From assembly GCA_963921795.1 (NCBI GenBank), contig OY997654.1:2970206-3034205 (forward strand): a stretch of DNA of 64,000 nucleotides, read 5' to 3'. This DNA is from Nannobrachium achirus (Eukaryota; Chordata; Actinopteri; Myctophiformes; Myctophidae). Within the stretch, counting starts at the first letter, position 1. Each line of letters begins with the position of its first letter. Made by a program: the position numbers and the translations under genes. This document shows positions 2,803-61,852 of the stretch, piece after piece. The notes under the pieces were generated by a model. It saw only the letters and a program-made list of their open reading frames with translations, did no database searches and was not told the origin of the DNA.

Positions 2803-3108
2803 ACAGGGGTCTTCAACGTTTTTCACACAAAGGACCCCTTAGTTGAGAGAGAGAGATGAAGCAGGGACCCCTACGACCTTTTCAGAGATTCCGCAGTTTC
2901 ATTGTTTGACACGAAGATCATCAGTTTAATTCGGTATTTTGGTGATACCTTTAACTTCTTAAAAGAACAGTCAACTTGACCTTTCACACTGTACTTGATC
3001 TGCTCTCTTTTCCCTCTACACCAAACCTCTTTGCTGAAAATAGCCGATCTACAATCTCACAACAGCTTGCAGTGTGAGGCATTGTGAGCTTGTAGATCGA
3101 CTACTTTT

Positions 3109-3188
<80 letters not shown>

Positions 3189-3300
3189 AAACATCTTTCT
3201 GACTACTGAATGCCTTGTTGCATGTCATGTAGCTGGAGCACCCTATTGGCCATGCCCCCGTAACTACAGCCCCTATATTCTTTAGTAACACTTGATCACA
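2803..3300. mobile_element. hAT-like MITE (CAGGGGTCTTCAA family), partial
   Basis: The left end CAGGGGTCTTCAACG and the internal AAGGACCCCTTAGTTGAGA block match the better-bounded copy at 40435-40825. A (GA)n run occupies 3109-3186. The right end is not clear. The dispersed palindrome (3037-3109) lies inside it. Confidence 0.6.
3037..3109. repeat. Dispersed GATCTACAAGCTC palindrome, copy 1
   Basis: Arms TAGCCGATCTACAATCTCAC and GTGAGCTTGTAGATCGACTA surround a loop of about 25 nt. It sits within the hAT-like MITE. Confidence 0.8.
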
Positions 3301-3661
3301 TGGGTTTGGTGCTCCGGTTGTCCATATTTAGTCATAAATGTCCAACTTTGCTTAAACGAGATACCTCTGACATTGAGACAGTGTTGGTGGGAAGGGGCTG
3401 CATATTGACAGCAATACATTTGTTTTTGTTCAGCAATAAGTGCAACGTTACACAATTCTTATTGGAGATAATAATACATTTTATTTTTATGCACTTGTCA
3501 AATCAGGATTACACAGTGCTTTACAAAAAACTGATGAAAATGCAGTAAAATAGGAAATAAAAACAGCAACAATCAAACATGAAAAATAAAGAACAAGTGA
3601 TTTAAAAGATGAAGTGACTTACAGTCTTACATTATTTTTTTTGTTTATGTATTCCCTATTG

Positions 3662-4056
3662 CAGGGGTGGGCAACTTTGATGATGGCGAGGGCCACTATA
3701 TTTCCACCTTCACTCCAGAGGGCCACATTGCATATTGTTACGTCCTACTTTGTCATTCTACTATCTCATACAAAAGCAAAAATAGCAGATCTACAAGCGC
3801 TATTTTTGCTTCTTTTGAATTGAAATATTGAAATGTAACATTTTGATTTAATTTCAAACGCATTTAGTTATATACTCATGTTAACTTTATGAACTTAAAT
3901 ACAAATACATTGGACATAAAAAAATACTTCTGTACTACTTATTAAGCTACTAATATAGTATAATAATTTATCAGTATTCCGGTATTAACCTGCGGGCCGC
4001 ATTAAGCGAAGGTGAGGGCCGCATGTGGCCCCCGGGCCGCCAGTTGCCCATGTATG
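3662..4056. mobile_element. hAT MITE (CAGGGGTGGGCAACT family), 395 bp
   Basis: The left end CAGGGGTGGGCAACT and the right end, which reads CATACATGGGCAACTGG on the minus strand, form imperfect terminal inverted repeats. They are flanked by CCCTATTG (3654-3661) and CCCTATTT (4057-4064), a 7/8 match to the 8-bp target duplication expected for hAT elements. A fused remnant of the dispersed palindrome lies at 3780-3808. An inverted relative occupies 61375-61852. Confidence 0.8.
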
Positions 4057-4134
4057 CCCTATTTACTGTGTTTAATGCAAAGATTCACTTTATTTTTTGA
4101 TTTGATGTACATTTCCCAGGTTTAAAATACAACA

Positions 4135-4201
4135 AAACAATATAATATAGTAATGTAATGTAATGTAATGTAATATAATATAATATAATATAATATAATA
4201 T
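4135..4201. repeat. (AATGT)n/(AATAT)n pentanucleotide microsatellite
   Basis: The run starts as TAATG repeats and changes to TAATA repeats. Confidence 0.9.
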
Positions 4202-6672: not shown

Positions 6673-6768
6673 AGATAAGCTCTGGTTAATACTTTTCATT
6701 GGTTCAATATTTATGAAACGCACAGGTCCACTTAACTTACACTTTCACTTAGTACATTTAAAAGATCT

Positions 6769-6834
6769 GCAGATCTACAAGCTCACGCTGTGTCGTATCG
6801 CGACAAATTGTGAGCTTGTAGATCGGCTATTTTT
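6769..6834. repeat. Dispersed palindrome, copy 2
   Basis: GCAGATCTACAAGCTCAC pairs with TTGTGAGCTTGTAGATCGGC across a loop of about 25 nt. It lies just downstream of the receptor gene's last exon. Confidence 0.8.
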
Positions 6835-6954
6835 GCAACTTTTATGTGACCGAGGTTTCTGCCCGACAGCAACAATGTGCGGGTGATAGACATCAATAAT
6901 ACCTCCGCATCCATTATCACAGAGTTTCAGCTTCCGTAGACTCATTTCCTGATT

Positions 6955-9900: not shown

Positions 9901-12900
9901 ATAGAAATAAATAGCAGATCTGCAAGCTCACAACAAGTTGCGATGTGACGTGGTGTTGTCAGCTTGTAGATTGGCTATTTTCGCTACATTTGCTGTTGCA
10001 TGAGGAAGTATGGCATTCATTCATGAGGAAAAAAAGTTGAAATATGTTTACAAGGTTTCTGCCTGACAGCAACGATATTAAAACATATTTTTGTTTAATT
10101 GAAAAAAAGTTTCACTAACTAACTAGTAACTGCTAACTGACAAACTTTAACATACTTCCAAAAATATAAAAAACACTGACCGTGTTGCAGTGGGAGGTAC
10201 AAGTCATCAGGAGCTCCACTTTGATTGGTCCCATGATTTGCAGCAGTGCCCTGATTGGTTCCCTGAGACTGAGCAGCTCTGTAATTAACAACATGAAATC
10301 TAGCAGAAATGAAGAATAAAACAAGATGGAATCTACTGTTGTCATGGTGATGAATAGACAGAGATGAGCACTGTACTTACCTGACACAGCATGCATCTGT
10401 AAATTAAACACAAGTTGAACCATAAATATACTCATAATGTTTTATGTAGAGTTGCTCAATAATGTAATAGATGTGATGAATCTAATATAATAGTTCTCAC
10501 GTTTAGATGTTGTGTATCGACACAGCAGGAGCAGCAGGATGGTCAGTAGGATCACAACAACAAGTCCTACAATCAACCCCACTGGAGAACTCTGTTCCAT
10601 AGGTACACTCACTGAAGGTGGAGCAGATCCACTCACTGAAGGTGGAGCAGATCCACTCACTGAAGGTGGAGCAGATCCACTCACTGGAGGTGGAGCAGAT
10701 CCACTCACTGGAGGTGGAGCAGATCCACTCACTGGAGGTGGAGCAGATCCACTCACTGGAGGTTGAGGCACTATGATAGCAATGAATATGAAAATAGCAT
10801 TGAGATAGTATTATTATTATTATTACCCTTATTACCCTTATAACAATGCTGTTATATTACAGTATGCAAACACTGTAATTCATCTGCTGTTGTAAAACTG
10901 ACCACTATCGTGTCTGTTATTGTGTAATAGTTCACAAACTAAGCTTGAAAGTTTGTTTTTAAGTAGTAGTAAAACAAGTAGTAAACAAGTAGTGGCAAAA
11001 CAAGTATGTCCCTGTATGTAACACAATTATGAAAGTGATGTAAATGCTTGTGACATCTAGAGTCTAGACCTACTGCACATACAGTATGAAACAGAGCTGC
11101 TACCTTTAAATACATTTTGAAAAAGTATATATATATATATATATATATAAAATGTCACAATGCGACATAGCTCTGTTTACACAATGTTGTACCCCCTCCC
11201 AATGAATATATGTTCCCCATTTTCAACAGTTTTTATTGTCTCCACCAGCCGAAGGCTGAGGGGAGAGTATGTTTTCCCCTCCGTCCGTGTGTCCGTGCGT
11301 CCGTGCGTCCGTCCGTCCGTGCGTCCGTGCGTCCTCGCAGTTTGTGAGCACCTAATCTCAGTCGCCGTTGGCCCGGACGCTGCCAAAGTGAACACACACA
11401 CTCCCTGGATGCCAATCTAGAACCTCTGCCCTAAATTTTTCAAATGGGCCTTTTCTAGCGCCACCTAGTGGCCAATGTTCGCAAAACACATTTTGGTGCA
11501 CTAGTCTTACAGATTTTGGCCAAAAATCCTACAAATCGGTAGGCAGTATCTCCACAGTCATGTGATCGACACGGATCTGTCCGATTTTGCATATTCCATC
11601 CTGATTGGCTAAGATTGGCTTCCAAAGTTTGTAGGATTGAGCCGTTTGGAACAAAATGCCTCAAATCCCAAACGCAAAGTGCAATCATCATGAAATCGCA
11701 CACACACGTTCCCACTAGGTCGAAGAAGAAATGCCACTTAAAATTTTTGAAATCAGCCTCATGGTGGCGCTATAACAGGCCGATTTGTGGTTTTACCTAT
11801 AACTCCACCGATCAATTTCAAACTTTGCAAGCGCACTCCCTAGAAGCTAACGATAAACCTTTGCCCTGCATTTTTCACATAAGCCTTTTATAGCGCCACC
11901 TTTGGGCCGACTTATGTAAAACACATTTTTGGATATTACTCCTTGAGATTTTATCCAAAAATCACGCAAATCGGTACACAGTATCTCTATAGTCATGTGA
12001 TCAAGTCCGATCTGTCTGATATTTCATATGCCATCCTGATTGGCTAATATTAGCTTCCAAAGTTTGCAGGATTGCACCACCAGGACGCACAGCCTGGTGG
12101 AGACCTGTGCTCGGAAGAGCACTGCTTCTAGTTTTATTTGTGACACTTGATTTGGCAATGTAAACGTACGTTTTCTCGTGCCAATAAAGCTCCTTTGAAT
12201 AGAAAAAAATAATAATTGAATTGCATGTGTTTAATAAATACATCACAAATAAAATGGGAAAGTTTTACCGGTATAATCACATGTCACTGCCATCCAGCTC
12301 TGTGATGATTCTTCTCCAGAATATTTACACTTGTAGAATCCCTCATCAGTCTTAGATACAGCAGGTATGATCATCTCTCCATTGGTTTTAGTTTGGACCA
12401 GTTGTTCATTTCTATAAAAGTCCACGTTGGAGAGAGATGAAACCCTTCTGTGTTTGCATATAAGAGTGACAGAATGTCCCTCAGTCACAGGGTGAACAGG
12501 ACCCACCAGGATGACACTCTGAAAACGACCTGTAACGTGATAAAAAAACAGTCATCATTTTAGAATTAACAGAGCAAATTTGCATGATTTAATGAGTTGA
12601 TGGAGGAACTGAACTTACCATGTACTGTGATGTTGACAGCATTGCTGTACTCTCCCAATCCAGACTCACACCAGTACACTCCACTGGTGAGTCTATTTCT
12701 GACGACGTTCCATGTATATCTGGTCATTGGCTCGCTGCTTTGTGAAAACTCTTTCAATCCATTAGTGAGACCCTTCACTTTCCATTCGGTAGATTTCCCC
12801 TCACAGCTCAGTGAGACAGACTCAGAGGTGAAGTGTTGAGTTCTGTCAGAACTCACTGTGAGAGAAGCTGAAGAATGAAGATCTATAACACAACACAGGG

Positions 12901-14378
12901 TCAGAGGTCAAACAAAAATGTGTTACAATGACATACTGTATAAGACAAGAGAAGAAGAAAGAATGGGAAATACAAATAGAAAACATGGGAACTAGTTCTG
13001 TCCTGTAAGTTGTTTATAATACAAACTAATTACAGAATTAAATTAAGAATTAAGAATTATAATGATTCAAACTCACCACCAGACCACACGAACTGAGGTT
13101 CACTGTACTCAGTGTAATAAACTGGGTCTCCTCTCCCAGCTTTACACACATATCCTCCTGTGCCTGTAGGACCATGCATGTTGTAGGAACCTTCTACAGT
13201 CCCATGGAGGCTACCAGGTAAGAGCTCATAAGTGTAGGAGTTGGGTGATGGTTGAGGAACAGCTCTGTACCAGTAGAACCTCCAGTCTGCAGGTGATTCT
13301 TTAACTTCACAGCTCAGAGTCACTGAGGCTCCAGGACTCAACCATGGAGGAGACACACTCAGAACAGGCTTGGGGTTGTCTGTTGGAAAACACATTTTGA
13401 TGGATAAAAAATAATTAAACGTTTGCTTCTTTTACATGTCTGTAAAATATAATGATATTTATATTGATGTTTCATGCAATTCCTGGAAGTAAAAAAAAAA
13501 TACTCACATGTTAAATTAAGTAAAAGTAACAATACTGCAATGTAGAACTACTCTGTTACAAGTAAAGTCTGGAATTCAAAATGAACTTGGGTAAAAGTAT
13601 GAAAATGTACTCAAAGTCCAAAATGTTTGAAAATGGCTTGTAGATTAATATGTGTTTTATGTTTTAAATCTGCAAAGTAACTACCGTAGTAACTGACGTT
13701 TTCAAATAAATGTAAGGTAAAAGTACAATATTTGGACCAGAGATCTGTGGAGTAGAAGTGAAAAAGTATTGGAAATTGGAATTACTCAACTAAAGTACAA
13801 ATAACCCAAAAAGGTACAGTACATGTAAATGTGCTTAGTTACTTTGCATCACGCCATCCTGTTGAAGACTATATACTGTGTAGAACACAACTGTAAGTGA
13901 ATAAAGAGAATAGATATTAAATATTCACCTTGACTGTGTCCATAGGAGAGGAAGCTGCACAGCACTGGAAAACATTTGATGAAACAATATCAAACTAAGC
14001 ATACATACGTATCTGGATTTTAATTATTCAACATGACACCAACATATACAGTATAGACAGCTGTTCAATAGAAACTAATAACAATCAACAATAATTTTAT
14101 CGATTCTGCTAATGGCTCTAATGATGAATGACCATAGACAGGATTGCTGAGCAATATTGTTTAATTTGAACCTTCTTGTTTCTGCTTCACTTTGTGTATA
14201 AACAGTGGTTTGAAATAATTGAAGGCTTTTTCAACTATGAAATAACAAGCTTACCAGGCTTGAGGCTGCACATATGTCTTAATTGAAATGGTTCAAATAG
14301 TAGTTCAATAGAGCTAGTAGTAATAATCTTAAATTTGGCCTACTCACAAAGGAGAACGCAGAGAGCGATATGACCCAT
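6955..14378 (-). CDS. Ig-superfamily inhibitory receptor, Fc-receptor-like/LITR-like (13 exons)
   Basis: Modelled by hand from splice sites with matching phases. Coding exons: 14378-14348, 13964-13929, 13379-13077, 12867-12619, 12529-12269, 10770-10501, 10396-10381, 10278-10181, 9538-9488, 8194-8179, 8075-7978, 7302-7249 and 6995-6955. They join in frame to 507 aa. Residues 1-22 are a signal peptide (MGHIALCVLLLLCSF). Three Ig domains follow (about 23-123, 124-206, 207-293), each with a Cys pair, e.g. VTLSCEV...GGYVCKA, VSLSCEG...GVYWCES and VTLICKH...GFYKCKY. Next come a SAPP(P/S)VSG octad stalk (302-349), a membrane helix (about 357-377) and a tail with ITIMs SVYGVI (Tyr427) and SVYEDL (Tyr482). 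Inference: a leukocyte surface receptor that recruits SH2 phosphatases. The architecture fits teleost FcR-like or leukocyte immune-type receptors; the ligand is unknown. The last exon is the least certain. Confidence 0.85.
7249..8194 (-). repeat. Tail-exon cassette B (duplicate of 9488-10396)
   Basis: It contains a 16-nt exon (8194-8179), a 98-nt exon (8075-7978) and a 54-nt ITIM exon (7302-7249). Sizes, order and the first intron length (about 102 nt) match cassette A. Both 98-nt exons encode ADDLYCPLQH/PDDLYLPLQH-like ends and both ITIM exons end in DDDYEN. All exon phases allow cassette A to splice into cassette B in frame. Confidence 0.8.
7502..7830. mobile_element. Foldback MITE in a receptor tail intron
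   Basis: The ends TAGCTGGGGAGCCACAGGC and GCCTGTGGCTCCCCGACTA are inverted repeats. The interior is also inverted (GGTACACAGAATGAGAGGCC and GGCCTCTCATTCTGTGTACC). Flanking duplication is unclear. Cassette A's corresponding intron lacks it, so it arrived after the cassette duplicated. Confidence 0.75.
8446..9463. repeat. ~1-kb interspersed repeat ('TGGCGCTATAA' family), forward copy
   Basis: It starts CTAGAAGCAGTGCTCTTCCG and ends near GCTTCGGCTGGTGGAGACAA-like sequence. Inside are two GGTGGCGCTATAA-type modules and an (ACGG)n microsatellite at 9309-9400. An inverted copy lies at 11237-12134. Related fragments occur near 29950, 37000-37330, 53160-53465 and 57617-58290. Confidence 0.75.
9309..9402. 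repeat. (ACGG)n/(ACGC)n microsatellite
   Basis: A tetranucleotide array of GGAC units with CGCAC variants, inside the 1-kb repeat. Its long open frames (repeats of SVRP or GRTD) are simple-sequence artefacts. Confidence 0.9.
9488..10396 (-). repeat. Tail-exon cassette A of the Ig receptor
   Basis: Contains the 16-nt exon 10396-10381, the 98-nt exon 10278-10181 and the 51-nt ITIM exon 9538-9488 (SVYGVI, then DDDYEN). It is the upstream member of the tandem cassette pair described under 7249-8194. Confidence 0.8.
9909..9981. repeat. Dispersed palindrome, copy 3
   Basis: ATAGCAGATCTGCAAGCTCA pairs with TCAGCTTGTAGATTGGCTAT. It lies in the intron between the 98-nt and ITIM exons of cassette A. 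Confidence 0.75.
10608..10765 (-). repeat. 24-bp coding minisatellite (receptor stalk)
   Basis: Six full 24-bp units plus partial ends, in frame, encode SAPPPVSG (three) and SAPPSVSG/V (three). The two sub-types are grouped, which points to recent local unit duplication. Likely variable in copy number between individuals. Confidence 0.9.
11128..11149. repeat. (AT)n microsatellite
   Basis: A short AT run in the receptor intron. Confidence 0.9.
11237..12134. repeat. ~1-kb interspersed repeat, inverted copy
   Basis: On the minus strand this repeats 8446-9463 from CTAGAAGCAGTGCTCTTCCG through the TGGCGCTATAA modules to a (GGAC)n-like microsatellite (11278-11335). It lies in the intron between Ig domain 3 and the stalk/membrane exon, opposite in direction to the other copy. 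Confidence 0.75.
13500..13830. mobile_element. hAT-like repeat (AAGTAAAAGT-rich family), degraded
   Basis: Shares 'gcaatgtagaa.cactctgttacaagtaaa' and following text with 25290-25460. Where that copy carries a full 75-bp palindrome, this one has only the remnant AAAATGGCTTGTAGATTAAT at about 13627-13655. Confidence 0.6.
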
Positions 14379-14908: not shown

Positions 14909-16660
14909 ATTTTTAAAATGAAAACAAATTACAACGGGACGCTTTGTGAGCTTCATCTACTATTTTCAAATAGCCTTGGACTCAACTTTAAGAACCACGT
15001 CCATAGAATATTGAGTACTGTTTTTGTTTCAGTTGCGTAATCGGCCAGCTCCACCACCCCCTCTTCTTTTTTTTATTTCATCAGTAAAACTTTCTTCATA
15101 AAGGAACATGAACACAGCCTGAGAGGACGTGTGGTTGGATGTGCTTCCTGTTGTGGTTTGGTCATCTCTCCTCTGACAGGCCTGGTATTGCTACCACTAC
15201 TTTTGCTTTGTATCTATGCATTGTAATATTAGCTATGCCTATGATCATGATTAGAATGGGGTAAAAGTGTAGTCAAACTATTGTAGGATGTGGGTAAAGG
15301 TAAGCATATGATAATGTTGTTTTGTGGCAAGCCTGGAATTTGTGTACAAGTATTGACACAGGGGACATGGCCTATATAGAATTCAAATAACAGTAAAATG
15401 AGAGAAACTGTGTAGTTTTTAGTTGGCATTAGGGTAGAAAGAAAAGATTATAAGAAAGGTGTAAATGTGTAAAAAACGTCAGATGACATGTAGGGTGTTG
15501 TCTTGTGTGTGAACAATGACTTGGTTGTTTGGTCACAGGCGATCATTTTATTCCTTATTAGAGTTTGTTGGGACCCCGATTTGTTACGTTTCATTCGAGG
15601 GGTAATAAAAACATCATCCTTATTGTGGCTTTATTCTGTCTTATTCTGTCTTTGTTCCTGTCTAATAAAACATTATAAGTTATAATTACCAACACATTAT
15701 TTCTTATTATGGCTTTATTATGGCTTATTCCGTCTTATTAGTGTAAGGTAAAATAGGGTGGGACCATTAAAGACGTTTTGAGTGTCTAAAATGTGCTGTA
15801 ATACAACATATTATTTATTCCTGAACTGGCAGAAAGAAAAAAGTGTGACATTTAATCAGCTATTTATATATTGATGCATCAATCTATTACACCTTGAATT
15901 GTTGTTGCCCAATGATACACATACCCTTTGAAGATGAGCAGGGAAGTTGAAGATGGTGAGCACAACACCAGCTTTAAGCCAGACAGTCTGCCCAGTGCCC
16001 AGTCCTGTCAAAGTCTTCACTTCTGAAGTGCTCTCTGCAAAGCAGTGTCCTGTCATTTGCAACAAAACCATCCCTTATTAGGGCAAGTTTCCACTGTCAC
16101 CTGCTCTCTAGGCTTTTAGGAAACCTTTAAAAAAATAAATGGGAGAAAAGGTAGGCCTACCCAGATATATCAATTTAACATTTTCCACCCTTCTTTCCTT
16201 TAACATTAAGGGTAAGGATATGCATGTATGCATGCATGCATGTTTAGCCTATGCAAACTTTGAGAATAAGACAACCACACTCAAAGAGTTAAAAAGCGTC
16301 AAAAAGAAAGATTCAAGGATGGTGTAAACAGGTGGTAGAAGTATTTCTAAAAAGCCAGGGTCAACAACAATATTATTATATCACAGCCTTGCTGTTCCTG
16401 TGCAGCATAACTTGTATTGTACATAATGCTTATCCTAATTACTAGTAAGACACCTCAGGGTGACATGCGACCTCGCCCTAAAGGGCGAGGTCGCGCCAAT
16501 TCTTGACTATCTGGCCAACCACAGTGTTTCTCTGACGATTCTAGTTGTTATCATTCTGGGGGGAGTTTGTTCATGTTTTTGTGAGGGTATCAACCCTAGG
16601 AGACACGGGGAAACATGCAAACTCCACACAGAAAGGCCCTATCGCCAACCCCATCGAGGG
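14909..16660. other. Intergenic, no gene seen
   Basis: AT-rich. Positions 15121-15179 match 1698-1755. A perfect palindrome lies at 16467-16494. Open frames here are short and lack recognisable domains. Confidence 0.6.
16467..16494. repeat. Perfect 28-bp palindrome
   Basis: GCGACCTCGCCCT, two A residues, then AGGGCGAGGTCGC: a 13-bp perfect GC-rich stem with a 2-nt centre. Its GCGACC...GGTCGC ends recur as short hairpins at about 17278, 46772 and 57617. Confidence 0.9.
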
Positions 16661-19835: not shown

Positions 19836-20578
19836 GGGCTCCACTGGCGGCGTCGCGCTGCTCTGCATCTTGACGCCGTCATTGACGCCGTCACATTGAC
19901 GTCCGACTGGCTCCACTGAACGTGAATTTGTTGATATTTCAATCAAAGATCAGATGAGGATATGGCATTAATATCAACTGTAAAGTTATGCCTAATTTAT
20001 CATTTATTATGTGTAAAGTGCTGAAAGAAGTAGCAGATCTACAAGATCACAACACGTCGCATGCAGTCAGGACATGCCGTTTTGTGAGCTTGTAGATCGG
20101 CTATTTTCGGTGCACACGCACCGCCACGACAATGTATAAAAATCTGGCTTTAAGTGTTCAGAGAACTTCAGACTCAGTCACTCACATGCTGACCTGTAGT
20201 TGTTTCCCAGCCTGTTGTGTTTATTCATAATTTTATCAAAGTAAGACCACGTAATTACATTTTTTTTTTGGGGGGGGGGGACATCTAGTCACCCTTGTGA
20301 ATAACGTGAATGGATAGCCAACAGCAGAAAAACACGTAGGCTATATAGTCTACATTTAAATATAGCCTACACTGCATTTAATCATATTTTATACATGCCT
20401 GGACGTTGTGGATGGCGTCAAAAAATTGAACCGGGCGATTTTTGAGTTTGGACGCCGTCACGGGAGTGTCCGACGTTGCTGTTGCCGTCGGCAGTGGAGC
20501 TTCCTTCATTGATTAAAACCGGAGCGTTCCCAGCGCTGACGTTGACGCGACGCTCGACGCGCCCGGTGGAGCCGGGGG
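19836..20578. mobile_element. Element with inverted GGCTCCACYGG ends
   Basis: The left end GGGCTCCACTGGCGGCGTCG and the right GCGCCCGGTGGAGCC are inverted and imperfect. Several GACGCCGTC copies sit near both ends. It carries a dispersed palindrome at 20031-20107. Confidence 0.5.
20031..20107. repeat. Dispersed palindrome, copy 4
   Basis: TAGCAGATCTACAAGATCAC pairs with TGTGAGCTTGTAGATCGGCTA around a loop of about 35 nt, the longest loop seen. Confidence 0.8.
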
Positions 20579-26094: not shown

Positions 26095-26327
26095 TAGGAT
26101 TAACTGCTCAACACGAGGGTGAAGCATAGGGGTTGAAGTGAATGTATTACGTGCGCAACAGGGCTAACTGTGCTAAATGTAGCATAATCAGTGTTTGTGT
26201 AACTTCAGTCAGAAGAATTATCTGACCTGATAATAAAACACAATCTACAGGCTTAACCGCCTCGCGTTGTGAGCTTGTAGAAGAGAGCAACAATAGAGTT
26301 GGGTCACGTTTTATTTGTTTATAGCCT

Positions 26328-34262: not shown

Positions 34263-34267
34263 ACAAC

Positions 34268-36019: not shown

Positions 36020-36060
36020 AAAATAGCAGATCTACAAGCTCATTGTGAGCTTGTAGATCT
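36020..36060. repeat. Dispersed palindrome, copy 8 (minimal form)
   Basis: AGATCTACAAGCTCA, TTG, TGAGCTTGTAGATCT: a perfect 15-bp stem with only a 3-nt loop, the shortest version in the window. Confidence 0.9.
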
Positions 36061-40434: not shown

Positions 40435-40825
40435 CAGGGGTCAAGGACCCCTTAGTTGAGACAGAGATGAAGCAGGGACCCCCACAACCTGTTCATAGAT
40501 TCTATATAGTACAGTGACGTTTGGATTCATGTCAGTTAGGGTTTTCGGACATTTAACCACTTGAACCGTCAATACTTAGTAAACTTGACCTTTCACTCTG
40601 TACTTAGTCTACTTCTTTATCCTCTATACCAAACCTCTTTGCCGAAAATAGCCGATCTACAAACTCACAACGCCTCACAGCGCGAGGCGGTGTGGGCTTG
40701 TAGATCTGCTATTTTTGGCTAATGTTCTCAGAATAATATAATGGTTAATATAAAAAAGTCACAACCCCCCTTTAGTAGCTCTGAGGACCCCCTAGTGGTC
40801 CCGGACCCCCTGTTGAAGAACCTTG
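40435..40825. mobile_element. hAT MITE in a TLR intron, 391 bp
   Basis: A perfect 8-bp duplication TTCTAAGA is at 40427-40434 and 40826-40833. Ends CAGGGGTC and GAACCTTG are inverted and imperfect. It ends about 50 bp from the donor of the middle TIR exon and contains palindrome copy 9. Confidence 0.85.
40643..40716. repeat. Dispersed palindrome, copy 9
   Basis: AATAGCCGATCTACAAACTC pairs with GGGCTTGTAGATCTGCTATT. The loop also holds CGCCTCACAG/CGCGAGGCG pairing. Confidence 0.8.
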
Positions 40826-46789: not shown

Positions 46790-48300
46790 ACAATCATGCA
46801 TTTTAACTATAAATCACAAGATGAGCAAATCAATAGAAATCATGTGCCACACAGTACTAAAATGCTTGTGAAATGTGTATTAGAAGTTATCAATACAAGT
46901 CTAAAAATCCATCTTCGCAAAGACACTATAATTACCAGAGAAATATATTCAATACAATGTGTAGTAAAATGTATGAGTATAATGCAAATAATGAATGCTT
47001 TAAATGAGCAAATGATACCATTAAGTTAGTTAGATTTGATCATATATCAAAGCCGATTAATATGGTAATGAGCAATGAACCTTAGTGAGAGGTTGTATTC
47101 AGGAGAACCTTTGAACTAATCATCTTCCACCTTCATCATTTCACCAGCCTGTATTGCATAATTTTTAATTCCTTCTTTTGAATGTACTTTCTACATTCAA
47201 AAGAAGGAATTACTTTTTACATGAGATGAAAGGCAATTCCGTACAATTAAATTACAAAGCACAACAAAATGATCAAATCCAATAGAAGGTCAAATTTAAC
47301 TTTCAATTAGAATAATAAAAAATGGTTTAAGTCAGATATCGCGCTAGCATTTTAAACTGATTACAATTTTTCGGACATCTGATAAAAATATCGGTCATAG
47401 ATCTGTATGCATTAATGATAAGCAGGTCCGTAAATGCAGCCTAACACAGCCATAAGCATTATGTTTTGGATTGAACTGTTTGAACATAAGTATACACAAA
47501 TGTTAGGGCCAACTTGCTCAACTACTGTACATTAATTACCCATGAATCCAAAATACACTGATGATTGTGCTGTCACATGATGAAACTATATGGAATCTAT
47601 GAAAAGGCTGTGGGGGTCCCGGGTTCATCTCTCTCTCAACTAAGGGGTCCCTGGCCTGAAAACATTGAAGACCCCTGGTATATTGCACAGCATGGAGCCT
47701 GTTCCTCACTGGCCTATCCCTGATTATATATAGTGTGTTTGCAAATGTAATTATTTTTTTGGAAAAGGCTTCAGCTTGTATTAGTTTTAGCGTTCATTTT
47801 AGCTCAGAATCTTTTTTTTGAAAATGGCTGATCTACAAGCTCACGGTATTTGGCTATATTGGCATAAAACTGGCACAGTTAAATTGATTTATGCTTGTGT
47901 TCATGACTTTTTCTCTATGATAATTTTTTCTTGGTTAGCCTACTTGTTTTTCCAGTAGTTTAGCTTATTTTGTTTTATTAAACTCTAATAACTCTGTATT
48001 GCCTCTAAAGGCAGCCATACACTAGCAGATAATCTGGCCCGACTGAATCGGGTAGCATTAAACACTACAGGATAATTTTTTTCAGATTCTCTGACCGGAT
48101 AATCTAAACGGGCTCACACTAGCCGTTTTGAAAAGTCGGGCGCTCCGCACGCTACAGGATTTTATGAACAAAGCAATAATACATAATATAATGAATACAA
48201 AATGTTACAGGGGCTGTTCTTCGCCTTGCAACACCCAGCTGAAGTTAGCCACACACTCAGTGTTGGGTGAATGGTAGCCTGGGATCGCTTCCAATTTTGG
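46790..48300. other. Intergenic, no gene seen
   Basis: AT-rich. It holds a perfect hairpin at 47167-47213, an inverted hAT-like fragment (CCCTGGCCTGAAAACATTGA...CCCCTG, 47610-47680), and a one-armed palindrome remnant (47818-47846). Confidence 0.6.
47167..47213. repeat. Perfect 21-bp hairpin
   Basis: TAATTCCTTCTTTTGAATGT continues one base to A; five loop bases follow; then the exact complement TACATTCAAAAGAAGGAATT plus A. Perfect pairing suggests recent origin or selection. Confidence 0.9.
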
Positions 48301-48307
48301 GCTTTTG

Positions 48308-48682: not shown

Positions 48683-48912
48683 TAGGGGCCCTATTATGAT
48701 CCAGGTCTTATGCCTTATGCCTTAACTTCTTTACCTTTTTTTCACTATTTTGAAAAACATTTTTAAATACTTCAAATGCTGATCTACATCTGCACGTTGT
48801 GAACTTGCAGTTCAGCTATTTGAAATATTTAAAAAACAAAAACAAAATAGTAAAAAAAAGGCAAAGCAGTTAAGGCATAAAGCATAAGACCTGGATCATA
48901 ATAGGGCCCTAA
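48683..48912. mobile_element. Foldback MITE (TAGGGGCCCTATTATGATCC)
   Basis: Inverted ends TAGGGGCCCTATTATGATCC and GGATCATAATAGGGCCCTAA, about 60-bp arms. Its centre is a diverged dispersed palindrome, GCTGATCTACATCTGCACGT/GTGAACTTGCAGTTCAGC. Confidence 0.85.
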
Positions 48913-49461: not shown

Positions 49462-51072
49462 TCATTTCTCACAGATCCAGGGATATCGATCGCCACAGCC
49501 TGCATTTCTCCATCCTCTGGGTCCTGGGTGGGAATGTTGGCTGTCAAGATCCAGCCAGACTCCAGCACAGGCCCGGGAATCATCATAGGGGAAGCCATGA
49601 CTGTCCCAGTCCCTGCAGAATAAACAATATTTGAATCAGCGCAAAATCTTGATATTTCAATGTCCCGTTGTTTCGAGGTCCCAGTACTCCGGTCGATTAG
49701 GGTAGAGTTAGGGTTAGAGTTAAGGTTTAGGCTTTGGGTTAGGATTCACCTGCATCGGGAGGGTAGTTAGTGGTCACCAACGTCGGCAGGTTAGCATTCA
49801 CCCATGACGGCAGGTTAGCCTGGGATTTTGTAGACTGAAGGTGGTTGCACACTGCTGCGTTTTTCGTTGCGAAATGCGTTTTTCAGGGCAAGGAGAGAGA
49901 GAGAGATAGAGAGAGCAAGGGACCGAGTGGTGCGCGAAACGGGCGGCAGTGTGCAAACGTGACTGACATAACGTGAGGTTGATTTTTTATTTGCGTGATC
50001 CGAAATTCACTCCGATATTCGGCCCGAAAAACGCAGCAGTGTGCAACCACCTTAAACTATATGATGAAAATGTTTCGCCGACTACCTATTTTCACTGACG
50101 GAAACTGATTAAGAACTACAAAAAAATCTAAGCCATGATGACTAAAACTAGGACTAAACATATTGACACTTTGTCAAAAAATAAAAACTAGACAAAAATG
50201 TTAGGGAGGGACTATAGTGCAGAGGAGATCCAGTAGAACTCATCGGAGGTCATTGGTTGTGTGCAGGTGTCGCTCTCCGAAAATAGCTGATCTACCAGCT
50301 CACAACGTGTCAAGTGAGCTTGTAGATCTTGACACGAGAGTATATAAATTGAGTATTTCAACACCATCACGGCCCTCCAAAGAACATTTCAGTCGACTAA
50401 ATCAACTGTAGATTTGTTGACTAAAATGTTATGGTATTTAGTCAACTAAAACTAGACTAAAAGGTGACTACATTAAAAGTTAACTAACGTGACCAAATCA
50501 GATGACTAAATATCATTAAACTAAATTAATTTCATTCATAAGACTTCATAAGAAGAAAATTTCCTGTCAAAATCAACACTACATCCACTCTGTCATTCAC
50601 ATTTGAGTTATTTTTTTACGACACCTGTATAGGACAGGTCTCAGACACGCCTCCTCAGGGGATTGGTTCAGAGATCTTAACCCATTTGATTTGGTGCTGC
50701 TGGGAACCAATTGCGACCGCATGCCCTTGCTGATGTCCATCCCAGGCAGGATTTGAACCCCCAACCTACCGCATGAAAGGCATATGCTCTAAAAAGAATT
50801 ACAATAAAACCACATTTAAATGTCTCACCCTGATGTCAGTGGTGTTCCATCCACCCAGGTCCATGTACCCGCAGTCCTCTTCAGACCAATCCAATATTCG
50901 AAGATTGCTCCTTTCAGTCCTCTGATGAATTTCTGAGGATTTGTCCACAATACATTTTCTTTAATACACTCCAAAATAACCATGGAATCACATCACAAGC
51001 ATCTACAGTATAGGCCTATGCACACACGTGTACACATGTGCACACACATACACACGTACACGTACACGTACA

Positions 51073-54167: not shown

Positions 54168-57100
54168 TGGGTAACTAAGTTTGATTGGGCTAGGAGCGCT
54201 TGTTTTGTAGTTCACCACACCCCCCTACCACCACCTGATTAATTCCATAGACTGTATAAAATATATGGACAAAGCGAAGCCATTGGTTTCTATGCAGCGC
54301 AAATGACACAATATGGGTCCTTGGCATGGGTGTTGCCATCATAGATTGTAAAGGCACCAAAGGATAGCCTGATAAATCAGTCCGCACATTACCACCCCCT
54401 GTTGGTGGGTGGTGTGTAGTGTGGACTGACCCCGGAGATATTTTATTTTATTTCGTCTCGCCTGAAGAGCGGGCGAATTGAATGGGCCAATCAGGGCTGT
54501 AGACTTGAGGCACGTGGTTTGGTGTCTGGTGGATTCCCAAGGCTGGTCCGGTCCCAGCCCCCCCCCAGCCCCCTCCCTTCTGAGCTCTTCTGCCCACGTG
54601 AGAGTCCCTAGTGGACTCTGATTGGTGCTCTTCTGCCCACGTGAGTCGCTAGTGGACTCTGATTGGTCCGTGATGCAAATATGACACATATTAGAATTTC
54701 TGTTTATTTTATGTGCTATATTAAAATTGACAATTGAAATCTTCTTTCACATCTGTTTGATAGCCAAAACACACAGAATTTTTTTTTTTTGTACTTTTAG
54801 AAATTAATTCAGGCGTCAAGGGGTGGAGCGCTCCTGGTCTCAATCTAACTGAATCTCACACTAACTGTGACATATGTGTATATACAGTGTGTGTGTATAC
54901 ATTAGGGGTGTAACGATATAGTAACTGTATCGAAATATCGATTTTAACTTAAAAAATCGAAGTAGATCGAAATGAAAACAGCTAAAATCGAATCGTATCG
55001 TTTTATTTTGTATCGTATCGAATCGGCAGTGCAAAGAATCGATTGTATCGATACTACCTACTTGTGCATTGTATTTAGCATTTTTAAGAAGAAAAAATTA
55101 AAAGGTGTGGTTTAATTACTTTTCCTTTCCATATAGCTACACTGGTCTATTGATAAATGTGTGTAATCTCTGGGTTCATGTCAAGGTGCAGGTTTGTCAA
55201 TATACAATGTCCATGTATTTGGCAGATAATCACTGTGTTAGCTTATTTATATCCATAATAATACATGTTTCCCTTAAAAACCTGCACTATCCACACCTTT
55301 CACACAGATTTAATTTCTTTGCTAAATAGTTACTATATCGATTTTAAATCATTAAATCGAATCGTATCGTATCGCCATGAATGAACCAATATCGTCCATG
55401 TATCGTATCGTCAACCATGTATCGTGATATGTATCGAATCGCTATTAAAATGTATCGTTACACCCCTAGTATACATATATATATATATATATATACACAC
55501 ACATATATATGTATACTGTATATATAAAGAAAATCTGCTAAGTATCATGTGAGGGGTCAAACTTTTTCCATGATTCTGAATCCATTGCATTGCAATCCAT
55601 AGCCTCTTTTTCAGGTCATAACAGGCCATTTGTTTGTGGGTCTGTTTTTAGACCTATAGTGTTTTTTGTGCAAAACAAATTAAATGAAATGCAACGGATT
55701 CAGAATCATGACAAACCCCTAGTTTGACCGCTCATATGCTACTTAAAGTAGATTTCCTGTATAGTATATTAATGAGACCCAAACTTTCATCAGCTGTTAA
55801 AAAATATCCCTAGGGAAATTTAATTTCCCTAGGGATTTTTGTTTCAAATCTGTTGGATGTGTTACTAGACACCTTTACAAACACATTGGTGAAGACATTT
55901 ATTGCTAAGGAATTTTGCATTATTTTGATGCATTTGTTTACCTCGCGTCCCGTATCGTCTGATGAATGCAGATAATATTATCTATTCTCAGATTATTTAC
56001 TTTAATTTCAAATTATTGAAATGAATTAAAACTAAATGAAGTCATTTTTCCATCACTGTCCCTCCTGTCTGCATCCACTGAACATCATTGTGTTCTAATT
56101 ACCTTGACTGTCTTTCAGTCTGTTTTCAAGGAGTTGGACCTGGTGGTCGCTGCTGCTCTGTCTGTCTTTGAGGATTTCCACCTGGGTCTCGCTGGCACTG
56201 AGCTTGGCAGACATTTCTGAAAAATATAACAGAGACAATTAGAGTTCTGCTTTAGTGGTAAAAACTCTTATGATGAAACCAGCTGACTCCATTGGATTGT
56301 ATGAAGTATGAGGAGAGCAGTAAAGCATTGGCATCAAAATGTACTTAAAGTACCAAAAGTAGAAAGAACAGTAAAATCTCGCTCTTTCGAACGACCGTCA
56401 TTTCGACAACGGAGCGTCGGGGACTCGGGGAGGGTTAGCGACTCACCCCACGGAGGTTAGGGTTAGGGTAAGGGTTATGGTTGGGTGTTGAAAAGATGAC
56501 ACGTAGAAACAGCGAAGCGTTCCCAGAAATAACTCATGATGCAGAATGTCCCATTTAACAAGTTTTCACATATTTTGAAATTAGCAGATCTACAAGCTTA
56601 CAATGTGACACATTGTGAGCTTGTCTATTTAATAATGGCAAAAGTCTATACTAAATCTACAAAGTACAATAACTATAGTTTTCAAATAATTGTAGTTGAG
56701 TAAATATATGCCTCTGAGTAGAATTAAAAGTACAGAACATTGTTGACTCATTGAAAACACATCCCTGCTTCATTTATTTTAATTTAAAACAAATGAAAAA
56801 GTAATTGAGAAAAAAAAGAAGAAAAACAGCACAACTGATCAAATGAACATCAAATATATAAATATTGAATCAAACAACAAAGTGTCATAAAAAAAGCTAG
56901 ACGTTAAAATGAGCCTACTCATGTTTGAAACCCTTTACATAAAGGGTTCATATTTTAGATTGTAATTAGATTGTAAAGCAAAGATGAGTGTTAAAATGTT
57001 TTAATTTACTTGCTTTCTATCGTTTTAGCCATTTTGATTTCAGTGGGTGGGGGCATTGTTGTACAAGTGGCTTAATACAATAGACCTTATTCACATCACA

Positions 57101-59461
57101 GCCATCTTTGATCACATGACCACATGGGGTGGCAGCCTCCATTACAAACCATTGTAAACAGTCGAACTTTGGAGTTCTGTTCCACCAATTTATTTTGACC
57201 AAATCGACAAATGGGTAGATGACAACATCAACATCCCCAAAAGGATTAAATAGAACTGGATTGATTACATCCACGGTAACGGTATTCAAAGTAAGCTAGG
57301 TTGCAACCTTACTGTGCTATCTGTGTGCAGTGCTTGCTCCACCATCATATTAACTATTTGTTGTTAGATTGTTCCTGATTAATATGCAAAAATCACGATA
57401 CAGTAAGTTAACATGGATTGTCGGTGAGGCCATTTGATCCCCTTACTGCTCCAAACATTACATTATAAGGTGCTTCCCGTCTTGCTCCAAGTGTTCTCTA
57501 TCCATCAGGAAGCTCTCCGGAATGTGTAAGTCCATATTTGTCAATAAAGAAGTGTTGTACTCCAGCTTTGAGGCTCAAATACAAGTGTTACCAACAAGGG
57601 TTTACAGCTGGTGTTATTGCGACCGTAGGTCGCATTTACTACCAAAACCTCCACGGGCTGTCTGTGCGTCAGTCAGTCAGTCCGTCAGTCCGTCAGTCAC
57701 ACTTTTTCCCTGCTCATATCTCCGCAACCGTTGACCCGATCCATGCCAGATTTTGCACACACACTCCTTGACTGCCAAACTACAACCTCCAAGGACCCCC
57801 GGAGCCCCAGGGACCCCCAGGTCCCTGGGGGACCCCCAGATGTAAAAAATGACCAAATGTGCAAAAATGACCAAATGACCACCCCAACGGGGCTGCTCAC
57901 GGGGAATTCCCGGGGACCACCGACTCCTGGTGCTCCAGAACGGATGCAAAAGTGGTGGCGCCCCCAGTGGAGGACCCCCTGCCACTGCAGCGCACATAAA
58001 ATGCCGTAATTCGGGCTAGGAGCGTCCGGGAGAGCCGGGCCCGGTACCTATTCGTCCGCCAAGGCAACGCGGAGACCCCACCCCTCATTTCTCACATGGC
58101 CCTATTCTAGCGCCACCTTCAGGCCAATTTTTACAACACATTTTTGGACACTGCTCCTACAGTTTTTGCCCGAAAATCACGAATATCACTACACAGCATG
58201 TCTACACTCATGTCATCAACATGGATCAGGAAGATTTTGGAAAAACAAATTTTTGCCCTATTTGTGGAGATAAGCCACCTACGGTCGCTTATCTCCCGAT
58301 TAGGGAGTCTTACTGGTAATTATCTGTTGCGGGCTAGGGGAGGAATGCATGCATGCTCTACTGGGGGCGCATCTCTCTCCTTTGGCGCCCCCTTGTGCCT
58401 CTGGCGCAACTGCCCATAGTGCCCTGCCTAAAAAAAAACATAAGTCACATCTGCCCATGAAAGATTGCGGTGCATCTTGTGAATGGGCTTATTGAGCTAT
58501 AGTTTTGTTCATGCCTTACCCCTTACGTCAAATAGCCTATCTACATCAACTGAGATTGTAGATGAACTATTTGAAATATTTAAAAATGATTTTCAAAATA
58601 GTAAAAGTTTTTATAGTGATAAGGCATGGACGAAAATAGGGACCATTTTGTGTCTAAAAATACATATTTAGCCACTTGTACACTGCACGCATGCCCCCAC
58701 CCACTGAAATCAAAATTGTGAAAACATTTCATTACGCATCTTTTCTTTCCTCTAATAGTAGGGCAGAGAGGCTCCACCAGCACCCGAACATCATTTTTTT
58801 TAAACCTGTTTTTTTAGGACCCTTATGGTGTCTAGTTATGATTTCTTCTTGATGCCGTGGTCAACTATAGTTCCATATGGGGTTCATTTTTAATGATTTT
58901 TTGCACCTACCCATTCACTTACTAGTAGCTAGTCTAACTATGTTTTTTTCATGATTCTGAATCCATTGCATCCAAGAATTTGTTTTGCACAAAAAAACAG
59001 TTTTGTGGGGTCGTTTTTAGCCCAAGGAATGTTTTTCATGCCACAAAAATGCTGGCAATGGATTCAGAATCATGAAAAAACCCTAGTTAGAACCCTCACA
59101 TGCTACTTGAAGAAAACTGTACATTAATTGAATGGGTAGGTGCAATAAATCATTAAAAAGGAACCCCATGGGACATTAGTTGACCATGGCAACAAGAAGA
59201 AATCATAACTAGACACCATAAGGGTCCTAAAAAAAAACAGGTTTCGAAAAAATGTGTTGGGGTGCTGGTGGAGCCTCTAATTACAATCTAAAATAAGAAC
59301 AAAGTTGTCCTCTAAGTGTCCTAACCTGCATGTTGTCCTTCCAGGTTGCTCAGCCTCTCCTCCATGCTGTTCTTCAGCTTTCTGAAGAGCGCATTGACCT
59401 CCCAGCGGATGTCATCCGCGCCTGCCACACAGAACAGGAAAATCAGCAGAACAGCCTTCAT
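49462..59461 (-). CDS. Secreted C-type lectin with coiled-coil neck, 237 aa, six exons
   Basis: Exons modelled with consistent phase: 59461-59326, 56216-56103, 51776-51723, 51293-51139, 50932-50829 and 49612-49462. Residues 1-15 are a signal peptide ([15 protein letters not shown]). Residues 16-101 are charged and heptad-like ([44 protein letters not shown]), a likely coiled-coil neck for oligomers. Residues 102-237 form a long-form C-type lectin domain: [51 protein letters not shown] and [11 protein letters not shown]. Expected disulphides are 109-120, 136-235 and 203-227. The EPN/QPD motif is replaced by FPY and WND by WRN, so canonical calcium-dependent mannose or galactose binding is not expected. 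No membrane segment is seen. A soluble immune or plasma lectin is inferred; the ligand is unknown. Confidence 0.9.
50279..50330. repeat. Dispersed palindrome, copy 10
   Basis: ATAGCTGATCTACCAGCTCA pairs with TGAGCTTGTAGATCTTG, in the last lectin intron. Confidence 0.75.
51074..51136. repeat. (CA)n microsatellite at a splice donor
   Basis: The run ends 2 nt inside the lectin intron after exon 4: on the minus strand the donor reads GAAAAG|GTTGTGTGTG, so the microsatellite supplies the donor context. Confidence 0.95.
51298..51321. repeat. Poly-G/poly-C tract at a splice acceptor
   Basis: On the minus strand a run of about 22 C followed by TCCCAG forms the polypyrimidine tract of lectin exon 4. 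Confidence 0.95.
51915..52170. repeat. Partial copy of the 6171-6672 repeat
   Basis: Shares GCAAACCCCATTATACCTGT, CGGCCGAGCATCTAGTC and CGATGTAAATAGG with it, with inserted ATATATGGAGAT units. It lies just upstream (plus-strand right) of lectin exon 3. Confidence 0.65.
52567..53655. mobile_element. hAT-like non-autonomous element (TAGGGCTGTCAAA family), 1.09 kb
   Basis: Left TAGGTGTCAAAATTATCGCG and right AATCATTTGACAGCCCTA are imperfect inverted ends, lying within AT dinucleotide repeats on both sides. The interior carries ACGCAATTAACGC and GATTAATC motifs typical of the family. A separate microsatellite-bearing repeat (53098-53465) is nested inside. Confidence 0.75.
53098..53465. repeat. 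Copy of the microsatellite-bearing repeat family
   Basis: (CTGT)n at 53108-53145, then CACACACAATCCTTGTCTGCC, CCAGGGACCCCCG repeats, TATAGCGCCACC and a GCGACCTAACGGTCGC end. Related to 8446-9463 and 57617-58290. Confidence 0.6.
53820..53865. repeat. (CCTAG)n tandem run
   Basis: TAGCCTAGCCTAGCCTAGCC within the long lectin intron. Confidence 0.9.
54120..54160. repeat. (AT)n microsatellite
   Basis: About 40 bp of TA repeats. The DNA on either side (53688-53870 and 54162-54240) repeats GTTTGGGTAACT and GAGCGCTTGTTTTGT. Confidence 0.9.
54903..55468. mobile_element. hAT MITE, inverted copy of 35333-35913 family, 566 bp
   Basis: A perfect 8-bp duplication GTATACAT lies at 54895-54902 and 55469-55476. 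Ends TAGGGGTGTAACGATA and TATCGTTACACCCCTA-like sequence. Located in the large second lectin intron. Confidence 0.9.
56578..56632. repeat. Dispersed palindrome, copy 11
   Basis: TTAGCAGATCTACAAGCTTA pairs with GTGAGCTTGTCTATTT. The right arm has lost a few bases (GTAGATC to GTC). In the first lectin intron. Confidence 0.75.
57617..58290. repeat. Copy of the microsatellite-bearing repeat family
   Basis: Starts with the hairpin GCGACCGTAGGTCGC, followed by (CAGT)n/(CCGT)n at 57668-57700, CCAGGGACCCCCAGG units, and CTAGCGCCACC. Confidence 0.6.
58767..59278. mobile_element. ~510-bp foldback MITE in lectin intron 1
   Basis: Long inverted arms: AGGACCCTTATGGTGTCTAG against CTAGACACCATAAGGGTCCT, and GTGCTGGTGGAGCCTCT against its inverse. 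The core has TTCATGATTCTGAATCCATT and its inverse. It ends 48 bp from the exon 1 donor. Confidence 0.85.
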
Positions 59462-60180: not shown

Positions 60181-60525
60181 CATAGCTCAGGGGTAGAGAA
60201 ACCATTAGTAGAGCACGAAGGGTTCCCAGTTCGAATCCGGGCTCCCCTTGACTTAATGTCGAAGAGTCTTTGAGCAAGACTCTGAACCCCTAGTTGCTCC
60301 CGGTGAGTAGGTTGGTGCCTTGCACGGTTTCCTCCGCCACCGGTGTGTGTAAATGGGTGAATGTAATGCACAATCTATGTAAAGTGCTTTGGATAAAAGC
60401 GCTATATAAATGCACCATTTACCATTTATGAATGAATGGACCATTGTAAAGCGCTTTGAGTTTGCAACTTGCTTAGAAAAGCGCTATAAAAAGCAATCCA
60501 TTATTATTATTATTATTATTATGTA
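60175..60525 (+). mobile_element. tRNA-headed SINE, second copy
   Basis: GGCATAGCTCAGGGGTAGAG and GTTCGAATCC form a tRNA-like head. Two versions of the AAAGCGCTTTG...AAAAGCGCTAT tail follow, then (ATT)n. Confidence 0.8.
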
Positions 60526-60745
60526 ATTGCAACAACTAGCGATCTTATGTGCACAATGGAAACGGTATATATACCGCGATTCTGCCAATAATAATCATAT
60601 AATTGGAGACGCACATCTGAGTTTTTGCAGAGTTTTTTCCCCATGTCCTATTCGCTCATACTAGGCCATGACTTATGTGTATCCAGACGAATATCTGCAG
60701 TGGGCTCAGAATGTCCCATTTCACAAGCTTTCAAAATGCTTAAGA

Positions 60746-60790
60746 AAATAGCAGTTCTACAAGCTCAGCGTTGCAATTTTCAAATATAGC
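60746..60790. repeat. One-armed palindrome remnant
   Basis: AAATAGCAGTTCTACAAGCT followed by CAGCGTTGCAATTTTCAAATAG; the right arm is mostly gone. Confidence 0.55.
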
Positions 60791-60859
60791 CAAAGTAAGT
60801 ATATATAGGGCAGAAGTGGTTATGTTTTTTGTAAAACTAGTAACTATATTTTTCCATTA

Positions 60860-61352
60860 ATTGCCAAGGATTTCTTCTTGGTTTTTAAAGCCCTTAATGG
60901 CCTGGCACCCTCCTATCTCGATGACTGTCTGAATAGATATGTTCCTGGCCGTCCCCTTAGGTCCACTACTGCTGACCTACTTGAAATCCCTAGCTTAGAA
61001 ATGAAAATTAGAAAATACGGTGAAGCTGCTTTTTGTTTCTATGGGCCGACGGCCTGGAACCGCCTCTCATTATATTTAAGGCAGTCAACCTCGGTGGACA
61101 GCTTTAAGTCCCAACTCGAGACCTATTTATTTTCTATTGCTTTTAAATAATCCTACCCTAGCTTAACTGTTTTGCCTTTTGCTACTTTATTGTTATTGCT
61201 ATTATTTGCTGAGTTAATGTTGTATTTACTTTTGTCTTGCTGTATTGTCATTATTGCTGTTTTGTTTTTGTATCTTGTTGTGTGAAGCACTCTGAGCTGC
61301 ATTTTTGTATGAAGGGTGCTATACAAATAAAGTTTCATTCATTCATTCAAAG
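60860..61352 (+). mobile_element. L2-like LINE 3' end with intact C-terminal frame
   Basis: The frame 60878-61150 (FKALNGLAPSYLDDCLNRY, GEAAFCFYGPTAWNRLSLYL, SFKSQLETYLF) is the conserved C-terminus of L2/Maui-type retrotransposon proteins. The 3' end has AATAAAGTTTCATTCATTCA, typical of L2 tails. It is 5'-truncated. Confidence 0.85.
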
Positions 61353-61374
61353 GAGTAAAAGAGACATGTTAGAG

Positions 61375-61852
61375 CATACTTGGGCAACTGGTGGCCCCAG
61401 GGCCACATGCGGCCCCCACCATCACTGCGGCCCACAGGTAAATATCGAACTACTGATATATTATTGATTTCACCTGTTAGAATTCTAAACATACAAACAT
61501 GAACCGCTTTAATTACTTCAGTCTCTATTGGTAGCTTAATGTCTAGTATAAATACATTAAAAATATATTTATATATTTGTAAGAATAGCTAAAAGCTTGT
61601 AGTTCAAAAATAGCAGATCTACAAGCTCTAAACACTTCGCACTGTGACGTGTTTTGAGCTTGTAGATCATCTATTTTTGCTACCTTTTGTGTGACGTAGC
61701 CTACTGTAGAATGATAAACTAGGGAATTCATTTATCAAAAAGGTTAAAATACAGGGATAAGACTTTCTGCCTAACAATATATGTGTGGTCCTCTGGAGTC
61801 TGGAGTGTGGAAATATAGTGGCCCTCTCCGTTATCAAAGTTGTTCACCCCTG
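61375..61852. mobile_element. hAT MITE, inverted relative of 3662-4056, 478 bp
   Basis: TGTTAGAG (61367-61374) and TATTAGAG (61853-61860) are a 7/8 target duplication. Left CATACTTGGGCAACTGGTGG and right TTGTTCACCCCTG are the ends. Carries palindrome copy 12. Confidence 0.8.
61605..61679. repeat. Dispersed palindrome, copy 12
   Basis: AAATAGCAGATCTACAAGCT pairs with AGCTTGTAGATCATCTATTT, loop about 27 nt. Confidence 0.8.

Follow-up and report, generated by a model that had tools for sequence, protein, structure and literature searches.

How did one short palindrome come to lie at the centre of repeats that belong to different families? The question is raised by a stretch of 64,000 nucleotides (nt) from Nannobrachium achirus (contig OY997654.1), hereafter the window, within which all coordinates below are positions. 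The initial annotation of this window offered two answers, namely a tiny TA-flanked transposon that targets other miniature inverted-repeat transposable elements (MITEs), or a functional stem-loop captured by several element families. We observed that the same core stands beside matching halves of each family, that its edge in the window is sharp, that it carries family variants, and that its copy number is very high. Based on these observations, we suggest, in what we judge an evenly balanced case, that a Made1-like mini-palindrome was taken up by the founding elements of eight or more repeat families, which then amplified it.

The palindrome is near-perfect and about 75 bp long, with the consensus (C/T)GAAAATAGC(A/C)GATCTACAAGCTCACAAC(G/A)CSTCGC-NNN-mirror. 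Intact copies consist of two arms of about 36 nt and a 3-nt loop, and the modelled build has 75 bp, 30 pairs and the usual 3-nt loop; the long inverted arms, the almost absent interior and a length within 60-90 bp are those of a Made1-like element. Copies were given a direction from arm position -1, immediately preceding GATC, where the two arms differ (A versus C). In the window there are 14 copies with both arms and about six more that have collapsed or kept a single arm, all from one common ancestor palindrome. When the motif AATAGCNGATCTACAAGCTCACAA was compared with the window, 23 arms reached 19-23 of 23 positions, every one at a place listed in the initial annotation, which is borne out at all its places; when the window was randomised ten times (first-order), the top score was 18, reached once. 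A possible part-arm at about 61589-61612 scored 14/23, which is chance level. The annotation had also proposed a covariance model and a genome search. The model, trained on eight window copies that match by construction, recovered 14 two-armed copies at E <0.01, comprising the 12 listed as such and those at 48776 and 58527, which had been taken for remnants. At the same threshold it matched two unrelated hairpins (48361-48461, on structure alone, and 16725-16812), and the structure term by itself is therefore unspecific. The loops, described earlier as varying from 3 to about 35 nt, are in fact rather uniform: of 90 two-armed copies (50 from five loci, the window and 25 10-kb stretches, plus 40 palindromes with exact arms), 57 have 19 nt separating the 17-nt arms, the inner arms continuing to the 3-nt loop. 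Shorter loops belong to copies with the centre deleted, and the window copy at 20031 has about 10 additional loop nt. The five loci were kept of eight from the first search, three overlapping ones being dropped.

First, the palindrome is shared among many flank families. Single linkage of the 90 copies gave 20 clusters, the largest of which (32 copies) merges several families via shared flanks. When half-flank references were used, 45 of the 90 copies were found between matching halves of one of eight families (F1 14, F3 11, F6 5, F7 5, F5 3, F8 3, F2 2 and F10 2). The other 45 had one half identified (23), none (19), the same half twice (2) or halves of two families (1). Some F6 hosts start with CAGTGGTTCTCAACC. 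An ancestral part of one transposon family, the outcome against which the initial annotation had set its proposal, was rejected because the flanks fall into many groups; the alternative that a stem-loop sequence was captured by several element families holds up in that eight or more flank families have the core next to their matching halves. The A/C mismatch at arm position -1 appears in six of the nine family consensuses and in 43 of the 90 copies, and its recurrence across families indicates that the cores share descent.

Second, the palindrome has a sharp edge. Across 16 sides taken from 10 window contexts, AAAATAGC is conserved at every base (in 13-16 sides each), and the two bases outside it read CG, CA or TG in 11 of the 16 sides, which fits a decayed CpG (binomial p 8e-6, the two sides of one copy being counted separately). 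Beyond this CpG the consensus of the 16 window sides ends, and shared sequence halts sharply at the arm edge. Within the window, arm identity was 79.6% between host families (240 pairs) versus 79.1% within families (27 pairs).

Third, the palindrome is extremely abundant. The exact 17-nt arm occurs 61,453 + 60,568 = 122,021 times in the genome of 1,658,514,493 bases, and its reversed control 0 times. Palindromes with two exact arms 10-30 nt apart number 17,420 genome-wide, where the self-complementary pattern is counted once per strand, and their control 0. In 20 stretches of 10 kb, beginning at position 1,000,001 of contigs 1-20 and hence regular, not random, and near contig starts, 70 arms exceeded 22 bits, the best of 20 random windows being 20.3; extrapolation from these 200 kb gives about 580,000 arms genome-wide. 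Outside this genome, a single exact arm piece was found in one bacterial and seven viral contigs. No partner arm was seen in the roughly 80 nt after those pieces (one contig, L005, ends inside that stretch), the longer arm pattern gave 0 matches in the bacterial and viral collections and the two-armed pattern 0 in the viral contigs. A foreign occurrence of the palindrome was rejected, the bacterial and viral matches being single-armed. Neither the motif strings nor a shared palindrome of this kind was found in open-licence full-text literature, a weak negative because only such text was covered.

In the window, comparison of flanks gave four host groups, H1 (copies at 3037 and 40643), H2 (3780, 6769, 9909 and 61605), H3 (25461, 56578, 60746 and 14950) and H4 (48776 and 58527), and the remaining window copies have no strong flank match within 90 nt. 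H1 and H3 fall in F1 and F3, and the H2 copy at 6769 falls in F2. The initial annotation had spoken of at least four distinct hAT or foldback families; one of the four groups (H4) is a foldback, and hAT-type ends were seen in H1 and H2. Among its remnants, 13627 (collapsed, H3-type) and 26265 (badly decayed) stand, 48776 and 58527 are two-armed, and a half copy at 14941-14979 is added. The copies and their hosts are as follows.

3035..3109, minus strand: palindrome copy in an H1-type host, A-arm towards the right (covariance model).
3662..4056, plus strand: H2 host of 395 bp, ends CAGGGGTGGGCAACT / CATACATGGGCAACT, flanks CCCTATTG / CCCTATTT.
3777..3812, plus strand: collapsed palindrome in an H2 host.
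6761..6835, plus strand: palindrome copy, right flank H2-type (covariance model, flank comparison).
9906..9983, plus strand: palindrome copy, right flank H2-type (covariance model, flank comparison).
13618..13650, plus strand: collapsed palindrome in an H3-type host.
14941..14979, plus strand: half palindrome, right flank H3.
20025..20109, plus strand: palindrome copy with the longer loop, host uncertain (covariance model).
25461..25535, plus strand: palindrome copy with the best score, in an H3 host starting CAGTGGTGGAAAAAGTAC at about 25288 (covariance model).
26235..26290, plus strand: decayed palindrome remnant.
27803..27877, minus strand: palindrome copy, no host assigned (covariance model).
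31148..31214, no strand assigned: palindrome copy with 26-nt perfect arms and T/T at arm position -1 (covariance model).
36018..36071, plus strand: palindrome copy, centre deleted (covariance model).
40435..40825, plus strand: H1 host of 391 bp, TTCTAAGA duplicated on both sides.
40643..40717, minus strand: palindrome copy in an H1 host (covariance model).
47819..47850, plus strand: single arm remaining of a palindrome.
48686..48909, no strand assigned: H4 host, a 224-bp foldback with identical GGGCCCTATTATGATCCAGG ends.
48771..48824, plus strand: palindrome copy at the centre of the foldback (covariance model).
50278..50334, plus strand: palindrome copy, right arm rearranged (covariance model).
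56576..56640, plus strand: palindrome copy with deletions in an H3-type host (covariance model, flank comparison).
58527..58575, plus strand: palindrome copy in an H4-type host (covariance model, flank comparison).
60743..60785, plus strand: collapsed palindrome in an H3-type host (flank comparison).
61375..61852, minus strand: H2 host of 478 bp, flanks TGTTAGAG / TATTAGAG.
61605..61679, plus strand: palindrome copy in an H2 host (covariance model).

The 8-bp duplication at the host ends is exact for 40435-40825 and agrees in 7/8 positions for each of 3662-4056 and 61375-61852. H1 and H2 combine the ends and the 8-bp duplication of hAT MITEs, CAG.. ends being of the hAT type. Among the flank families, these features were seen (in the window) for F1 and F2 only. 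An automatic scan with stricter end matching recovered 0 of 19 places (chance expectation 0.45 per 19), and the host ends therefore rest on reading by eye. The palindrome itself is not a hAT MITE by the same measure, no 8-bp duplication flanking it in seven copies.

The two arms carry variants that are specific to a family and the same on both sides, namely ACATGC in F6, ACAGC with GCACAC in F2, TGGAAA in F8 and AAACTC in F10. In addition, the inner arms read GCCTC or GCGTC by family, CA..TG replaces TA..TA on both arms in F2 and some F9 copies, and the arms agree at loop position 20 in 46 of the 57 nineteen-nt loops versus 22.9 expected. In 44 two-armed copies (window and 25 stretches, position -1 excluded), 49 positions carry an identical change on the two arms, 24 carry different changes and 181 are altered in a single arm. 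When arms were re-paired over all 44 copies, 23.1±4.1 same-base changes were obtained and 0 of 5000 re-pairings reached 49; re-pairing inside flank clusters gave 46.5±2.9, and 1183 of 5000 reached 49. Since re-pairing within families is nearly free, the paired changes precede the spread of the families, and pairing is not maintained in the copies afterwards. Within a family, the two arms of each copy change independently of one another, and centres are often lost. In the window, arm identity was 84.0% versus 83.4% after re-pairing for nine clear copies (p 0.38), and the test over 14 copies gave p 0.027 for positions 0-16 and p 0.004 for the inner arm. RNA-type pair counts were as high in 0-8 of 500 shuffles of window alignments in one test and in 3-34 of 500 in another, in which six of seven double-change cells are innermost pairs; these shuffles ignore the relatedness of copies. 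Arm-to-arm correction continuing in present copies is unsupported, there being no excess inside families.

The flanks next to the arms are also partly mirrored, by ATTG in F6, TAG in F2, GTTGCGTGC in F7, ATAG in F8, TAG in F9 and CATT in F10, by AAACTAG in the F2 copy L021:729, and by two bases in F1, F3 and F5. Longer mirrored flanks are present in H4 and L033:9784.

Based on these observations, we propose that the ~75-bp palindrome would have entered the founding elements of eight repeat families or more. The core may have arrived there as a small mobile palindrome, possibly with TA at its flanks; the A/C mismatch that the cores have in common, the abrupt arm edge and an arm similarity as high between hosts as within them suggest movement as a transposon. 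Many copies share flanks and would thus have been multiplied together with the host, not by the palindrome, and targeting of other MITEs by the palindrome, as the initial annotation had it, is unsupported. In the source lineage, template switching between the arms may have kept them alike and lengthened them outward, from which both the founder variants and the mirrored extensions would follow.

Several points weigh against this proposal. Independent insertion into a host was never directly seen. The direct repeats sought around seven copies (offsets -16 to -4, lengths 2-10) were limited to a TA inside the arms, in five of the seven; as regards the earlier idea of a TA-flanked transposon, TA stands at the mirrored position in both arms, but inside the conserved palindrome, and no other duplication recurs around it. 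A clean empty site was sought and none was found: the candidate L025, near-identical to the filled L018:2699, was rejected as a deletion, seven flank bases being also gone. The palindrome's own movement is only inferred because it has neither a target-site duplication nor a proven empty site. The 40 exact-arm copies (with 160-bp flanks) all lie in the first 4.3 Mb of contig 1, and this choice favours well-preserved palindromes. As for the mirroring beyond the arms, across nine family consensuses the two flanks match at 31 of 36 positions in their outer four bases versus 11.1 expected (permutation p 1e-4), in a test for which families, members (44 of the 90) and orientation were chosen manually and in which F2 resembles F9. 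When a single member was drawn at random from each of the 20 clusters, the excess was weak (0.344 versus 0.268 for four bases, a level reached in 15 of 200 draws), and in the window alone it is not significant (p 0.07 to 0.41).

The best-surviving alternative, which we regard as possible and rather unlikely, is that the palindrome is a live or once-live TA-inserting (Tc1/mariner-like) mini-transposon, of which GTGAAAA-TA-TTTTCAC is the empty or cleanly excised site. The mirrored TA in both arms fits this idea. F6 hosts with 30 nt or fewer between GGTTCTATT and TTTCTGCCTC number 398, and 100 listed short forms comprise 35 clean deletions relative to the F6 reference and 65 with mismatches, filler or other changes. 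The junctions of these 35 are CTATT (5-nt microhomology) six times, the single TA (2-nt) four times and others once or twice each, so that the single TA is the commonest with 3 nt or less of microhomology. This junction in its ATTG..CAAT context, ATTGTGAAAATATTTTCACAAT, is found at 60 places genome-wide, in hosts that are mostly unchecked. The junction could, however, also come from deletion between the two TA, and the CA..TG of F2 and some F9 copies is at odds with TA insertion. Moreover, when six single-TA hosts (exact or with one mismatch) were read, the similarity among the four exact ones was 0.88-0.96 (averaging about 0.92, with some short overlaps), compared with 0.85-0.92 (averaging about 0.88) for the filled F6 hosts L010, L011, L018 and L031, and L087, which is one mismatch away from the junction, has a similarity of 0.95 to filled L010 across 347 nt. 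Since their similarity is not below that of filled hosts and L087 is close to L010, single-TA hosts do not look like an older, empty class. The junction may be an empty site, a clean excision or a repeated deletion. Among the single-TA junctions listed (50), six fall into one 10-Mb interval of a single contig (C5:12.8-22.8 Mb), possibly by local duplication. Of seven non-query host places, five keep palindrome sequence, mostly shortened, and two lack it (L031:7059 and the deletion L025); the idea that the palindrome is more conserved than its flanks was dropped, these seven being too few unbiased copies.

It is a doubtful, more far-reaching possibility that the palindrome is a selfish hairpin module, which would perfect and lengthen itself by arm-to-arm template switching and be passed between families as an exchange or inversion joint, so that unrelated transposons share one palindromic heart. 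Slightly more doubtful still is the simpler view that families exchange halves at the palindrome as a recombination joint, or that they all stem from an old foldback whose outer parts were replaced. The mixed copy L052 joins F1 and F8 halves, L031:2862 and L033:9784 have one half twice, once per side, in L013:1961 an F1 flank meets a flank also present in L016, the palindrome occupies the middle of the H4 foldback, and the flanks of some F1, F2 and F7 copies show inverted similarity further out (scores 25-31, null 99.9% 28). However, only one of the 48 copies with both halves identified is mixed, and the only half references that score 28 or more together are F3a/F10a (90) and F1a/F1b (30).

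A selected stem-loop (small RNA, cruciform or transposition enhancer) needed by several element families is the least probable explanation and very unlikely, although six copies have strong predicted folds (z -6.5 to -15.2), arm variants are concerted between families and window pair counts exceed shuffles, since single copies decay and collapse, paired changes follow families with no within-family excess (which led us to reject a functional stem-loop in each copy as the main explanation), Rfam gave 0 gathering-score matches in the window, and the best sub-threshold microRNA match (MIR2600, 44 bits versus a cut-off of 98) is, like the others, alike on both strands, as expected of any perfect hairpin.

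The mini-palindrome that we propose to have entered several founders has partial counterparts among known systems. Made1 is a mariner MITE and the source of miR-548. It is described as a human element of 80 bp with two 37-bp inverted repeats, 6 bp between them and 7,850 annotated copies (PMC1784062), and resembles the present palindrome as a near-perfect palindrome of two inverted arms with almost nothing between. In contrast, Made1 stems from the known autonomous Hsmar1, whereas the palindrome here has no known duplication or partner (a transposase was not searched for), and half of its sampled copies adjoin matching halves of eight other families. Spy (PHIS superfamily) inserts within AAATTT without duplication (PMC4482050) and is reported from invertebrates only (PMC9179366). 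Such insertion would fit the arms here, which are edged by AAA..TTT, but conserved bases run on outside AAA to CG/TG/CA and no clean empty site was found. The V domain, a conserved short interspersed element module, is described in an extract on the unrelated DNA transposon MER6 (PMC6887750); it is similarly a conserved module borne by an unrelated DNA transposon, but it is a domain of a different element class and is not called a palindrome in that extract. Finally, template switching is described as homogenising arms, extending identity between imperfect inverted repeats and perfecting or creating stems (PMC8794818; PMC3820800; PMC8604942). This quasipalindrome correction is a mutation process and not an element, and its action here is proposed, not observed.

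MITE families are normally separated by their ends and interior, and here several share one internal palindrome in very many copies. Such copies form a natural series in which to study how hairpins enter, spread with and leave transposons, how palindromes become perfect and then collapse, and whether they seed small RNAs. They are also a warning to repeat annotators that a short core can bridge unrelated families.

Some further observations were made. Repeated arms that lie close together and point the same way occur at contig C1:744594-744658 and at L031:3144 and 3180, indicating that palindrome arms can also duplicate in tandem, and at L055:161 a right arm is followed by another same-sense arm (TGTTGTGAGCTTGTAGATC), as if the palindrome were partly copied onto itself. 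In the window, the foldbacks 25694-26113, 48305-48517 and 7536-7786 have arms of 175, 100 and 95 nt in which no palindrome arm scored, and tandem arrays with units of 193, 152 and 160 bp lie at 17904-18435, 22112-22816 and 32571-33308. An Ig-type frame is present at 13060-13431 on the minus strand. A 723-codon leucine-rich-repeat frame at 41351-43519 on the minus strand (LRR_8, E 5.2e-56) is perhaps a receptor ectodomain. At 34250-35311 on the plus strand, a stop-free stretch of 354 codons matches the Pfam ubiE/COQ5 methyltransferase over residues 76-345 (E 2.1e-90), and its uninterrupted frame suggests that this copy is perhaps intronless or processed.

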